Origin: an uncultured Kiloniellales bacterium
GTDB lineage: Bacteria > Pseudomonadota > Alphaproteobacteria > Kiloniellales > JAKSDN01
Assembly (NCBI GenBank): GCA_947258885.1
Contig: CAMYKD010000010.1
Span: 1-43,675, forward strand
Reading direction: 5' to 3'
Length of the DNA stretch: 43,675 bases
The notes beneath the pieces are model-generated. The model had not been told where the DNA came from and made no database searches. It was given only the letters and a program-made list of their open reading frames with translations. Below, piece by piece: positions 5,023-19,069 of this stretch (position 1 is its first letter; each line of letters starts with the position of its first letter). Made by a program: the position numbers and the translations under genes.

Positions 5023-6381
5023 CTACTCGGCCGCCTGGGCGCCGCCCGCAAAGACGGCTTCCATCTCCTTGCGAACGCGCAGGGCGGCGTTGGCCGGATC
5101 GACCGCCACGTCGGCCCAGCTCAGCGGCTGGCCGGCCTTGACCGCGCGGGTCGAGGTGACCCCGTGGGCGAGGCCGATCGGCAGAACGCCGGCGGCGAGG
5201 CTGTCCTCCGCGGGCATCAGCCGACCCCAGACCGTATAGCCGCCCTCGCCGTCCAGCACCTCGCCGGCCGCAATATCGCGTTTCGCGACCGCGGCCACAT
5301 CGGCGCGGAAGCCGGTCGCCGAGCCGGTCGGCTCGCCACGCAGGGCGGCCGCGAGGACCGAGATGGAGAGCTCCAGCCCGATCAGGTGATAGGGCTTGTA
5401 CATGGACGCGTAACGGCCGCTCGAATCGGTCGCCAGGCCGTACTCTTGGAAACAGCGGGCGGTATAGGCCCCCGGGCCCTCGAACACGACGTACACGCCC
5501 CAGCGCAGGTCGCGCTCGACCGGGCTGCCGTCGCGCTCGAGACAGGAGACGACCTCGACCTGGCCCTTGTGGTGCAGGGTTCCGCCCTCGGCACGGGGCT
5601 TCAGCCCCTCGGCCAAGTGCTCGGCGCCGACCGGCGGAAAGGTCAGGCCCTGCGGGGCCGGGGTCAGGCCCGTGGCGTTGGCGACGGCCGCCATCTCGAT
5701 CGCCGACTTGGTGCCGTCGATGAAGGAGTTGAACATCTTGGGTTTCATGCCGCCGGCCTCGGCCTGTTCCGGCGTGATCCCGTAGTAACCCCAGACGGTC
5801 TCTGGCGTCGAGGCGTGGTACTCCGGGAGGTACTTGGTACCCTTGCCGGCTGCCACGACCGAGAGGCCGCTGGCGTGCGCCCAGTCGACCATCTCGCAGA
5901 TCAGCGCCGGCTGGTCGCCGTAGGCGAGCGAATAGACCAGACCGGCCGCGCGCGCTTCCTCGGCCAGCAGCGGACCGGCCAGCGCGTCGGCCTCGACGTT
6001 GACCATGACGATGTGCTTGCCGGCGCGGCAGGCGGCCTGGGCGTAGGCGATGCCGGCCGCCGGGTCGCCGGTCGACTCGATCACCACCTCCAGCCCGTCG
6101 GCGGCGATCAGCCCTTGGGCGTCCTCGGTCAGATGGGTGGAGCCGGTCTCGTAGGCCTCGGCGAAGGACCCGGCGCCGACCTGCGCCGCATCCCATCCGG
6201 TGGAGGTGCAGGCTTGGCGCGCGCGCCCCACGTCCAGGTCGGCCACCGCCATGACCTGGAGCCCCGGTATGACCCGGGCCTGGGCCAGGAACATGGAGCC
6301 GAACTTGCCGGCGCCGATCAGGCCGGCGCGCACGGGCCGGCCCTCGGCGGTGCGCTTCTGCAGCAGGGTGTAGAGGTTCAT
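5023..6381 (-). CDS. NAD(P)-dependent oxidoreductase with C-terminal SAF domain
   Basis: Protein of 452 aa resembling the predicted homoserine-dehydrogenase-like family COG4091. An N-terminal Rossmann fold (LIGAGKFGSMFLAQ, about residues 21-34) is followed by a middle catalytic-like region (KGTKYLPEYHASTPETVWGYYG) and a C-terminal SAF domain (RDIAAGEVLDGEGGYTVWGR, then an ending much like sialic acid synthase/antifreeze folds). This family is generally found with sugar-acid catabolism, but the true substrate is not known; it is not a genuine Hom enzyme. The start MNLYTLLQKR is typical, behind a weak AAAGGG ribosome site. It is first in a tight minus-strand set with the SDR and nitronate monooxygenase genes. 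Confidence 0.82.
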   Translation of the reverse strand: MNLYTLLQKRTAEGRPVRAGLIGAGKFGSMFLAQARVIPGLQVMAVADLDVGRARQACTSTGWDAAQVGAGSFAEAYETGSTHLTEDAQGLIAADGLEVVIESTGDPAAGIAYAQAACRAGKHIVMVNVEADALAGPLLAEEARAAGLVYSLAYGDQPALICEMVDWAHASGLSVVAAGKGTKYLPEYHASTPETVWGYYGITPEQAEAGGMKPKMFNSFIDGTKSAIEMAAVANATGLTPAPQGLTFPPVGAEHLAEGLKPRAEGGTLHHKGQVEVVSCLERDGSPVERDLRWGVYVVFEGPGAYTARCFQEYGLATDSSGRYASMYKPYHLIGLELSISVLAAALRGEPTGSATGFRADVAAVAKRDIAAGEVLDGEGGYTVWGRLMPAEDSLAAGVLPIGLAHGVTSTRAVKAGQPLSWADVAVDPANAALRVRKEMEAVFAGGAQAAE

Positions 6382-16282: not shown

Positions 16283-16677
16283 CAGGCGCCGCTCCGCATG
16301 GCATAGGCCAGGGCCCAGCTGCCCAGGGTCAGCGCGCAGGCGGCGATCACCATCAGCCAGCCGGAGCGGTACAGGTCGGGCAGCTCGAGGCCGTAGCCGG
16401 CGTCCCAGAAGAGGTGCCGTATGCCGTTGCAGAGGTGATAGAAGAGCGCGAATGACCAGCCGAGCAGCAGCAGGCGGCCGATGATGGAGCCGATCAGGGC
16501 CTGCGCCGTGGCGAAGGCCTCGGGCCCGGCCGCGGCGGCGGCGAGCCAGTAGACCAGCAGCAACGTCCCCGGCGTCAGCGCCACGCCCGTCATACGGTGC
16601 AGGAACGAAAGGACCGAGGTCAACTGCGGCCGGTAGACCTGCAGGTGAGGCGACAGGGGCCGGTTATCGCTGGACAT
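16279..16677 (-). CDS. sdhC: Succinate dehydrogenase cytochrome b556 subunit
   Basis: Membrane subunit of 132 aa with the family opening RPLSPHLQVYRPQLTSVLS, then SFLHRMTG (quinone-site Ser and Arg) and FYHLCNGIRHLFWDAG (haem ligand His). Three membrane helices are evident. It is first in the sdhCDA-ridA-sdhB operon. A GGAAGG ribosome site lies about 9 nt before the ATG, and a promoter is predicted at 16761-16789. Confidence 0.95.
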   Translation of the reverse strand: MSSDNRPLSPHLQVYRPQLTSVLSFLHRMTGVALTPGTLLLVYWLAAAAAGPEAFATAQALIGSIIGRLLLLGWSFALFYHLCNGIRHLFWDAGYGLELPDLYRSGWLMVIAACALTLGSWALAYAMRSGAW

Positions 16678-16760
16678 GAACCCGCCTTCCCCCAGAGGGC
16701 CTTTCGAGCCCCCGTCGATACGGATGGCCGCAGAAAGATGCGAACCCGATTGACTTGGAT

Positions 16761-16789
16761 CATTTAGCCTCCGTGACCGGAGGAGTCAA
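16761..16789 (-). promoter_or_regulatory. sdh operon promoter with palindromic spacer
   Basis: Minus-strand TTGACT (16784-16789) and TAAATG (16761-16766) are exactly 17 nt apart. The spacer is itself an inverted repeat, CCTCCG-N4-CGGAGG (16768-16783), so a dimeric regulator could sit between the -35 and -10. The leader to the sdhC ATG would be about 77 nt. An 11-bp word ACTTGGATCAT overlaps the -10 edge (16753-16763, plus strand) and recurs inverted at 16962-16972. Confidence 0.6.
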
Positions 16790-16861
16790 CGACACCGGCC
16801 CGCCCAAAAGCCGATCTCTTACTGCATCGCAATATGACCCCCATGAAGTAGCAGGCGAATA

Positions 16862-16980
16862 CGCACAACCCCCAACCGATAGGGGTATGGCTAGGGGTAA
16901 GGATTGTGCGGTGCAAAAATGTGGATAAGGCTGTGGAGAAGCTCGCGCAACTTTGTGAAATATGATCCAAGTTATGCACA
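16862..16980. other. DnaA-box and repeat cluster upstream of sdhC
   Basis: Within 120 bp are a 7-bp inverted repeat CGCACAA/TTGTGCG (16862-16868, 16904-16910), two tandem TAGGGGTA words 12 bp apart (16880-16887, 16892-16899), and two perfect DnaA boxes TTATNCACA (TTATCCACA on the minus strand at 16920-16928, TTATGCACA on the plus strand at 16972-16980). A one-mismatch box lies at 16932-16940 (minus). The surroundings are AT-richer than the genome. It could be a DnaA-controlled promoter region or part of a replication origin; the sequence alone does not decide. Confidence 0.5.
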
Positions 16981-17082
16981 AGAAAATTACTTTGGAACGA
17001 GATTCCATATTGCCCGGAAACGGCTGCTCGGCGACCCTGTCCGGGCACGCGAAAGCGCCGGGATGCTGGCAATGCGCGAGCC

Positions 17083-17755
17083 GCCCGCGAAGGCGGGCTT
17101 CGTGACGGGCTTTGGCCCGGAGCGGCGTCCGGTCGGAGCGACGGCGGGTCACGCGGAGACGGACCCCGGGGACCGCGGATCTCCTCACGGAGGACCGTGG
17201 TTCGGCGAGGCCGGCGGGTCCATTTCGGTGGACGCGGGTCTGGCCCGGAGGGTCTACCCCGGGCCCATGCCCAGACCGTCGGCCCGGAAGGCGACTGCCG
17301 GGCATTCCCGCCCTTGGCCTTCCGGTGGATCCCGCCCTCCGCCCTGCGCGGGAGAGGCGGGCCGGTCGGACGAGAGGCCCTTTCGGGGGTCTCAAGGAGG
17401 CCGGATGTTTCCGGGACCTTCGGGATCCCACCAAGTCCTTCGGGGTCTTGGCGGCGGTCCTCCGGGTTCCGAGGAGTTCCTCGGGTTCGACGGCAGATCC
17501 TTTGGGACCGTGCCGGAGAACATGAGGACTTCAGGGGAAATCCTCGGATTTCCGCGGAAGCATCGGGTGCCTCCCGCCGGGGCCCTCCAGCCCAGGCGGC
17601 TCGGTCGACGGAGCGTTCGAGATCGTTGCGGCGAAGCCTGCCTTCGCGCCGATGGTCCGAGCGCCACCGGAGAGGTTCGAGGGTCGCCCGGCGGAGCCGA
17701 CCGGTGGGTCGCGGCTTCCGGGAGGTTCGCCTCGCGAGGTCGCCGTCCCCGCCAC
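17083..17755. repeat. Non-coding block of dense small hairpins and a ~20-bp phased motif
   Basis: No plausible gene lies between sdhC and 17987; several frames on both strands are open but none looks like protein. The stretch is packed with short inverted repeats: GCCCGC/GCGGGC (17083-17098), GTCCA/TGGAC (17218-17233), CCGAGG/CCTCGG (17469-17484), GGAAAT/ATTTCC around 17536-17553, CCACCGG/CCGGTGG around 17664-17706, and GAGG-TTCG-CCTC near 17722-17733. At 17416, 17436, 17458, 17477 and 17498 a motif close to TCCTTCGGG repeats every 19-22 bp, and several copies close small hairpins with TTCG loops on the plus strand. Function unknown. Confidence 0.5.
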
Positions 17756-17796
17756 CGACGTGGGTCCTGCCGGGGCCGTGGTCGGGCGGAGGACGC

Positions 17797-17858
17797 AAAA
17801 AAGACCCCGCCGCCTTCCTGTGCGGGAGCCCTCACCGGCTCCATGAGGCGTCGGGGTC
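17797..17858 (-). terminator. Intrinsic terminator of the structured RNA
   Basis: Minus-strand arms GACCCCGACGCC and GGCGGCGGGGTC (17847-17858 with 17803-17814) pair at 11 of 12 positions, enclose a second hairpin GGAGCC/GGCTCC (17825-17842), and are followed at once by six T residues (17797-17802). Confidence 0.7.
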
Positions 17859-17911
17859 CGTGTCCTCCAGGGCACTGTCGAGAGAGTAATCTCTCGAACC
17901 CGGCGCCTCAT
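17797..17911 (-). ncRNA. Candidate attenuated leader or small structured RNA
   Basis: A compact minus-strand unit of roughly 110 nt between a promoter (17912-17940) and a U6 terminator. The 5' end AUGAGGCG (17904-17911) is exactly complementary to CGCCUCAU (17843-17850). This closing helix would enclose two perfect or near-perfect hairpins, CGAGAGA-UUAC-UCUCUCG (17879-17896) and GUGCCC-UGGA-GGACAC (17860-17875), giving a three-way junction. The 3' side of the closing helix overlaps the left arm of the terminator, so the two folds exclude each other, as in a riboswitch or attenuator. It matches no RNA family I recognise. It could instead be a stand-alone sRNA. Confidence 0.5.
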
Positions 17912-17940
17912 TTCTTATGGGCCCGGGCTCCGATTGTCAA
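17912..17940 (-). promoter_or_regulatory. Promoter for the structured RNA
   Basis: A perfect TTGACA (17935-17940, minus strand) stands 17 nt before TAAGAA (17912-17917); CATAAG at 17914-17919 is an alternative -10. A hairpin CAACCA/TGGTTG (17938-17956) overlaps the -35, and a 10-bp palindrome CTACATGTAG lies at 17971-17980, both just past the end of the mesaconyl-CoA hydratase gene. Confidence 0.5.
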
Positions 17941-17986
17941 CCAAGTTTTGTGGTTGGCCTGCGAGAATCACTACATGTAGGGCCCA

Positions 17987-19069
17987 TTAGGACGAAGACG
18001 GCGACAAAGGTGCCAACCACCAGCGGCGCGGCAAGAGCACTGTGTAGTCGAGGTCCAACACCACGGCCGGATCGTATCTGCCTTCGGAGTCCTTGTAGGG
18101 AAAATCCTCGCAGGCTTGGTCCTTTGTCGCGACAGTGCGCAGGCGCAGCGCGCCGACGTCGTTGCGATCGGTCAATTCGACCTTCTCGAGAACTTCGGAC
18201 CAAGCATAGATCGTGTCGCCAGCGAAGCTGGGGGCGGTATGAGCGCCACCGTTGATCGCGGCGGTCCGAAAGGCGCCGGAGAGGCCGTTGAAGCTCAGTG
18301 CGCGGGCGATCGAGATGATGTGTCCGCCATAGACGATACGCCGACCGAATCGGCCCTCCTTTTCGACATGCTGGTTGAAGTGGACTCGCGCCGTGTTGTG
18401 GTAGAGGCGTGTCGCCATCTGGTGCTCGGCCTCTTCGATGGTCATGCCGTCGAGGTGGTCGATCCGATCGCCCGGCGTGTGAGCTTCCCAATACCCGCCG
18501 TGCAGGTGATCGACGTTCTGCGCCGTGACCTTGACCCCCTCCGGCACTTCTAGGTTCTCGAACGCCACCTGGTCCGGCAGCGTCGGGACCTCCGGCGGGG
18601 CGACCGGGGCCTTCGGTTCGCGCTTCCTGACCATGACCCAGCGCACGTAGCCGAGCACCCGTCCGCCGCCCTCCTTGAAGCCTTCGGTGCGCACGTAGAC
18701 GACGCCGGTCTTGCGGTTCGAGTTCTCCTTGAGACCGATCACCGTGCTCATCGCGTACAAGGTCTCCCCTGGATATACCGGCGCAAGGAAGCGGCAGTCG
18801 GCGTAGCCCAGGTTGGCGACCGCGTTCAACGAGACGCCTGATACGCTCTGGCCGAACACGATATGAAACACCAGAAGGTCGTCGAGCGGCGCGCGTTGGT
18901 AACCGAGCGCTTGGGCGGCCGGCGTGGATGAGTGGATGGCAAAGCGGCTACCATAGAGTGCCGTATAGAGCGCGCAGTCGCCCTCGGTCACTGTTCGCGG
19001 CGGCCCGTGGGGAATCGTCTCCCCAAGACTGAAATCCTCGAAAAAGCGGCCCCGGTAGGTTCCAGTCAC
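17987..19069 (-). CDS. mch: Mesaconyl-CoA hydratase (beta-methylmalyl-CoA dehydratase)
   Basis: Interconverts mesaconyl-C1-CoA and beta-methylmalyl-CoA in the ethylmalonyl-CoA pathway. The 360-aa protein is a double hotdog (MaoC-like) enzyme: first domain with GRFFEDFSLGETIPHGPPRTVTEGD and YADCRFLAPVYPGETL, second with ARVHFNQHVEKEGRFGRRIVYGGHIIS and SFAGDTIYAWSEVLEK. These long blocks are characteristic of Mch rather than generic MaoC proteins. It starts with GTG at 19069 inside the stop of the lyase gene (GTGA overlap), so translation is coupled. Together with that gene it supports C2-unit assimilation without isocitrate lyase; other pathway genes (ccr, ecm, mcd) are not in the window. Confidence 0.9.
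   Translation of the reverse strand: MTGTYRGRFFEDFSLGETIPHGPPRTVTEGDCALYTALYGSRFAIHSSTPAAQALGYQRAPLDDLLVFHIVFGQSVSGVSLNAVANLGYADCRFLAPVYPGETLYAMSTVIGLKENSNRKTGVVYVRTEGFKEGGGRVLGYVRWVMVRKREPKAPVAPPEVPTLPDQVAFENLEVPEGVKVTAQNVDHLHGGYWEAHTPGDRIDHLDGMTIEEAEHQMATRLYHNTARVHFNQHVEKEGRFGRRIVYGGHIISIARALSFNGLSGAFRTAAINGGAHTAPSFAGDTIYAWSEVLEKVELTDRNDVGALRLRTVATKDQACEDFPYKDSEGRYDPAVVLDLDYTVLLPRRWWLAPLSPSSS

Follow-up and report, generated by a model that had tools for sequence, protein, structure and literature searches.

A probable plus-sense long non-coding RNA with a covarying three-way junction at its 3' end, often beside succinate dehydrogenase genes in alphaproteobacteria

The stretch of DNA analysed here (the window; 43,675 nucleotides of one contig from an uncultured Kiloniellales bacterium) carries on its minus strand the gene for mesaconyl-CoA hydratase (mch), ending at 17987, and sdhC, starting at 16677, beyond which lie sdhD, sdhA and, at greater distance, sdhB (open reading frames, with names backed by Pfam). 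Between mch and sdhC, an original prediction had placed a minus-strand switching RNA, and all of the letters on which it drew are present: TTGACA at 17940-17935, a 17-base spacer and TAAGAA at 17917-17912; a closing helix with arms AUGAGGCG and CGCCUCAU (plus-strand positions 17843-17850 and 17904-17911); a second stem of 12 positions with one mismatch, pairing 17803-17814 with 17847-17858 and followed by a minus-strand T6 at 17797-17802; and positions 17847-17850, which are common to both stems. The absence of a coding gene directly downstream holds for 1.1 kb, after which sdhC begins. A site scanner reported zero promoters and zero terminators across 16600-18200, a silence that arises because TAAGAA matches only three of the six positions of TATAAT and because the terminator loop exceeds the length permitted by the scanner. 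The features to which the argument refers are as follows.

16920 to 16980, plus strand: DnaA-box-like array, with TGTGGATAA at 16920, TGTGG at 16932, TTGTG at 16953 and TTATGCACA at 16972, in a spacing common to 34 loci
17010 to 17015, plus strand: putative -35 element TTGCCC
17033 to 17038, plus strand: putative, weak -10 element GACCCT, with A in second place and T in sixth place each in 25 of 28 loci
17045, plus strand: start motif GCACGCGAAAGCGCCGG, the proposed 5' end of the RNA
17045 to 17918, plus strand: proposed long non-coding RNA with predicted start and end, based on the start motif, CTTCGG bias, folds and an unprotein-like sequence
17797 to 17858, minus strand: terminator stem of the original prediction with its T6, present here and at a similar level in 5 of 52 copies
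17825 to 17842, plus strand: hairpin GGAGCC/GGCTCC immediately 5' of the junction, seen by eye in the window and in many relatives (uncounted)
17843 to 17911, plus strand: three-way junction, based on covariation, the types of P1 pair 9 and the comparison of plus and minus folds
17843 to 17855 with 17899 to 17911 (P1), 17860 to 17865 with 17870 to 17875 (P2) and 17878 to 17885 with 17890 to 17897 (P3), plus strand: helices of the junction
17912 to 17918, plus strand: U-rich tail TTCTTAT (together with 17911, TTTCTTAT), read as a plus-strand terminator tail, the same letters having served as the minus-strand -10 of the original prediction
17912 to 17940, minus strand: leftward promoter-like TTGACA-N17-TAAGAA, matched next to the helix in 15 of 59 loci by a strict and in 26 by a loose pattern

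Both strands of this region fold well. As a minus-strand RNA, 17795-17910 reaches -55.3 kcal/mol (z -2.71; equalled by one of 200 shuffles), and as a plus-sense RNA, 17795-17940 reaches -73.3 kcal/mol (z -5.51; equalled by none of 200), while the neighbouring block at 17040-17800 gives z values of -6.68 on the plus and -2.34 on the minus strand (20 shuffles each). The better fold of the plus strand is largely due to G.U pairs, which exist on one strand only, and it recurs in all ten junction sequences compared. In the window itself, P1 comprises 13 pairs on the plus strand, including one U.G, which on the minus strand becomes an A.C mismatch; the closing helix is thus fully paired only in the plus-sense RNA, which, together with the location of the U tail on the plus strand, speaks against the original choice of sense strand.

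Comparison with relatives confirmed the expectation of a conserved, structured RNA with compensatory changes, since 16 of the 24 junction pairs have changed on both sides, and none of 500 shuffles reached this count, the share of positions paired or the covariation score; the number of further pair types was reached by 11 of 500. These values come from an alignment fitted to the model (A4; 29 distinct of 32 rows), which leans towards its own structure and was used because the MAFFT alignments A2 and A3 misplace P2 and P3; on A3, two-sided pair counts did not exceed those of shuffles (243 of 500). The 54 distinct 3' domains have U.G (33), U-A (18) or C-G (three) at P1 pair 9, with A.C in none of them, and G-C (36) or A-U (18) at pair 11. 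A minus-strand RNA would therefore carry an A.C mismatch at pair 9 in 33 copies, and a U.G lying between U-A and C-G is the trace that a plus-sense RNA would leave. Comparison between genomes establishes the strand of the predicted RNA and its covarying 3' domain. An additional pairing between the 5' end of the RNA and the 3' arm of P1 was considered and discarded, as 165 of 500 partner swaps were equally good.

The same comparison bears on the minus-strand attenuator or riboswitch, which depends on mutual exclusion between the closing helix and the terminator. Both stems and the T6 do occur in the window, the minus-strand fold is matched by only one shuffle in 200, and 15 to 26 of 59 loci have a leftward promoter-like site next to the helix, but 33 of 54 copies would have a mismatch in a minus-strand closing helix, and a competing terminator at the window's level (an arm of at least 9 of 11 and at least five A in 10 bases) was found in just 5 of 52 distinct copies, the window included. 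Moreover, a start 6-7 bases past TAAGAA would remove the outer pairs of P1, and sdhC has a nearby promoter-like site of its own, TTGACT-N17-TAAANN (by eye). We consequently regard a switching RNA on this strand as very improbable and have rejected it.

The bases following P1 are equally asymmetric. In 52 copies, the ten bases after the helix average 4.85 T on the plus side and the corresponding minus-side bases 1.44 A, and runs of at least four T follow P1 in 22 of 52 copies, compared with A runs on the minus side in one of 52; the tail of the window is among the weaker ones, its longest T run being three. A stable stem with a U-rich tract is what characterizes an intrinsic terminator on the plus strand, and the model recovers the stem in all 54 distinct 3' domains. 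Given this stem and the U tail revealed by comparison, P1 resembles the stem of an intrinsic terminator read from the plus strand.

The promoter-like site on the opposite strand is only partly conserved. The strict pattern (TTGA-N16-19-TA) adjoins P1 in 15 of 59 loci and the loose one (TTG-N17-19-TAA) in 26, counts that include near-duplicates and of which the latter is generous, since a plus-strand U tail makes TAA more likely on the opposite strand; in the remaining 33 loci, even the loose pattern is absent. The minus-strand promoter originally proposed is supported in part. In the window, 17912-17952 of the minus strand reads TTGA-N17-TAA with a CACAAAATTTAG-like block upstream, overlaps the plus-strand U tail and is kept in part of the family. 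Near sdhC, the promoter-like TTGACT-N17-TAAANN lies at 16792-16764 on the minus strand and has kept its 17-base spacing in most of eight aligned genomes, and TTGACA-N17-TAAGAA resembles it (both by eye). With a leftward promoter next to the helix in 15 to 26 of the 59 loci, a convergent arrangement is quite possible, in which the plus-sense RNA would face a leftward promoter reading over its tail and an antisense RNA would control it or feed the sdh operon. Such a pair would be compatible with a plus-sense RNA, and many of the loci with the loose pattern also hold a CACAAAATTTAG-like block upstream; set against the 33 loci without it and the TAA partly forced by the U tail, we rate this arrangement at somewhat below an even chance.

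At the other end of the proposed RNA, the start region was compared across 34 loci picked by a score of at least 22 of 28 on the boxes, whose box scores are therefore not independent. The trinucleotide TTG occupies exactly the -35 place in 28 of these loci, and places shifted by one or two bases hold it in at most one of 34; in the same 28 loci, position -11 is an A in 25 cases, position -7 a T in 25 and position +1 a G in 21, although the plus-strand -10 is poor against the usual consensus. From this geometry, we infer the start of the plus-sense RNA at the GCACGCGAAAGCG motif, with TGTGGATAA at -125, TGTGG at -113, TTGTG at -92 and TTATNCACA at -73, sites that resemble DnaA boxes and that probably govern the RNA promoter. 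The distance from +1 to the start of P1 ranges from 366 to 1194 bases in these loci. A search for the array pattern matched 4 of 385 genomes from the class (reversed control, 0), and two of the matches come from outside the order: L174, which lies beside sdhC, and L177, whose 3.1 kb include no sdhC. Both loci terminate in a junction with a T-rich tail. In addition, six copies away from sdhC all have a variant of the array, and most have a similar promoter (by eye).

An array of DnaA-box-like sites at fixed spacing could also belong to a DNA element, such as a site for DnaA titration or reactivation or a replication origin, with the RNA being incidental. The covarying 3' domain, the pairing confined to the plus strand and the promoter geometry, however, require an RNA, and as regards an origin, the sign change in 20 noisy GC-skew samples, taken along a single contig of a relative, falls at roughly 0.3-0.7 Mb, and the element lies at 0.97 Mb. 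A purely DNA-based function is, in our estimation, improbable.

Between start and junction, the plus strand is rich in potential UUCG-capped hairpins. In 31 loci of the order, the stretch from sdhC or the locus end to the junction contains 123 copies of CTTCGG on the plus strand and 15 on the minus strand (near-duplicates included); the corresponding figures for 32 loci of the class are 104 and 16 (1.3 kb upstream of the junction; four loci common to the order set). At least four further pairs enclose the C(UUCG)G loop at 87 of 184 plus-strand sites, compared with one of 18 on the minus strand and three of 123 outside the gene. In the eight genomes tested against dinucleotide shuffles, the plus-strand count was reached by none of 300 in G004, G060 and P064, and the bias gave values of 0.01-0.03 in G001, G002 and G019; it was not significant in the window (two plus, none minus; P 0.20) or in G005. 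Sliding 120-base folds mildly favour the plus strand, as seen in all eight genome means and in z values below -3 for 18 plus versus nine minus folds at 143 positions. Among three members of the genus, single-sequence folds kept 30 pair changes and broke 15 on the plus strand, against 17 and 31 on the minus strand; consensus folds of the same members gave no separation between strands (49 kept and three broken, 34 and two).

Long open frames exist on both strands of this block, but a protein-coding gene was rejected on the basis of an even split of 55 substituted columns over codon phases among genus members (18, 17 and 20) and single-base indels at 17533, 17745 and 17796; by this comparison, the predicted RNA gene is non-coding. 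The long non-coding transcript of the original prediction is supported in its link to this block, and the evidence places it on the plus rather than the minus strand, the hairpin block then being, in our reading, the body of the plus-sense RNA. Two further observations concern related loci. In one of the six copies away from sdhC (L230, about 5630-5990; G363:C106), the RNA consists of eleven near-identical tandem UUCG hairpins, with GGAA to either side of an internal loop; at another locus (L006, 1705-1811; G005), a long G/C-rich inverted repeat lies downstream of the element and gives weak microRNA-family matches, all below the cut-off.

A 151-base query retrieved similar DNA from 8 of 98 genomes and a 966-base query from 10 of 98, the weakest of these matches being doubtful and the one at G007:C43 reading as coding DNA. 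A covariance model of the junction built from 10 sequences (R1) gave matches at E <= 0.001 in 32 of the 61 order genomes, among them 25 of the 48 better ones, and its successor, built from 32 matches (R2), gave matches at E <= 1e-4 in 26 of 385 genomes sampled from the class and, among 299 sampled from the phylum, solely in the window's own genome; no junction match was obtained in 29 of 61, 359 of 385 and 298 of 299 genomes, respectively. A pattern scan of contigs returned at least 119 stretches, and among the 80 loci listed, five were real by R2 (E below 1e-11), the best forward R2 match of the other 75 being 22.4 bits (E 0.015). Carriers include the cultured strain Pelagibius litoralis DSM 21314 (L042), where mch is visible and sdhC lies outside the fetched stretch, as well as one Pelagibius MAG, one Rhodospirillales MAG and two Kiloniellales MAGs.

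The usual position in the order is between mch and sdhC: within 30 fetched loci, sdhC is in reach in 25, either gene in 27 and neither in three (L171-173), and where sdhC is in reach, 905 to 1383 bases separate it from the start of the element. The genome of the window holds two model matches, the element itself (64.4 bits) and a second at G000:C20:19500-19577 (46.4 bits). This second copy, on the minus strand (L224, L227), spans about 0.3-0.4 kb, has a DnaA-box-like array of its own and is flanked by genes for a methyltransferase and a homocysteine S-methyltransferase. A second-type copy in one family adjoins a phosphoribosyltransferase gene (L231, 4798-5286, by Pfam; L233 and L234, by eye). 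A mobile repeat was rejected as an explanation, the whole genome of the window containing just two model matches at E <= 1.

Between mch and sdhC, both strands have terminator-like stems, which would also suit a two-way terminator separating neighbouring genes, with no RNA gene involved. We hold this to be highly unlikely, as the junction, promoter array and hairpin body recur together, also at a distance from sdhC. The conserved layout of the predicted RNA gene is established by this comparison, and genes of this kind most likely recur in many alphaproteobacteria, often beside the succinate dehydrogenase genes, and are apparently undescribed.

Altogether, we consider it likely that 17843-17918 is the 3' terminator domain of an undescribed plus-sense long non-coding RNA of about 0.88 kb. 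Its transcription on the plus strand would begin near 17045 and stop near 17918 (both ends predicted), divergently from the sdhC operon and convergently to mch; its promoter would consist of a TTG at -35 separated by 17 bases from a weak -10, and DnaA-box-like sites lying 65 to 125 bases before the start may place it under DnaA control; its body would fold into many hairpins, a good part of them UUCG-capped; and it would end in the three-way junction, with P1 as terminator stem followed by U-rich RNA.

What such an RNA does can be addressed more tentatively. Because of its repeated hairpins and its promoter, our leading guess, to which we give less than an even chance, is that the stable chain of hairpins works in trans, binding an RNA-binding protein as its scaffold or sponge, with a dose tied to DnaA activity. 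A wider and similarly speculative proposal is that of a class-wide, undescribed family of hairpin-chain RNAs with DnaA-controlled promoters and a shared junction terminator, the U tail of which doubles as the -10 of a convergent antisense promoter and which is present in two copies in some genomes; as a structural or protein-sequestering RNA, it might link replication or cell-cycle state to metabolism. The RNA would be widespread in alphaproteobacteria, and one carrier, Pelagibius litoralis DSM 21314, is a type strain in culture; the RNA, whose promoter, start motif and terminator can be recognised, would be amenable to deletion, tagging and pull-down, and the DnaA-box-like array renders a cell-cycle link testable.

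Only a small number of long structured RNAs are known from bacteria, most of them without an assigned function. Sponge RNAs of the CsrB/RsmZ type combine repeated hairpins and an intrinsic terminator with GGA-bearing loops; the present RNA shares the first two traits, an analogy that extends to a guess at how it might work, but its loops are UUCG and no binding protein is known for it. In agreement with the original statement that no known riboswitch class is matched, a search with Rfam 15 gave no match at gathering score in the window or in 20 other loci of the class and order, a result that extends to OLE, GOLLD and ROOL if the library contains them. The anti-hemB RNA (RF02837) aligned to 17804-17918 of the plus strand with 18.0 bits (E 0.039 in a 201-base search), below its gathering score of 49.5, and was rejected, its gene context also being different; 6S RNA (RF00013) was likewise rejected, as the single match in the genome (73.1 bits) sits at G000:C11:16803-16960. 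No description of such an RNA was found in the open-licence literature, where most matches were off topic, and a term search of one article (PMC2704228) gave no mention of sdhC. CcnA of Caulobacter is likewise an alphaproteobacterial non-coding RNA with DnaA boxes, and is set apart by its length of 182 nt and its location at the origin (PMC8959179), whereas the present RNA would measure about 0.9 kb and usually lie beside sdhC. The nearest kind is represented by OLE, GOLLD and ROOL, which are long, highly structured, non-coding bacterial RNAs (PMC12286853); the present RNA appears likewise long, structured and non-coding and, unlike them, would combine a chain of UUCG hairpins with a class-specific 3' junction.
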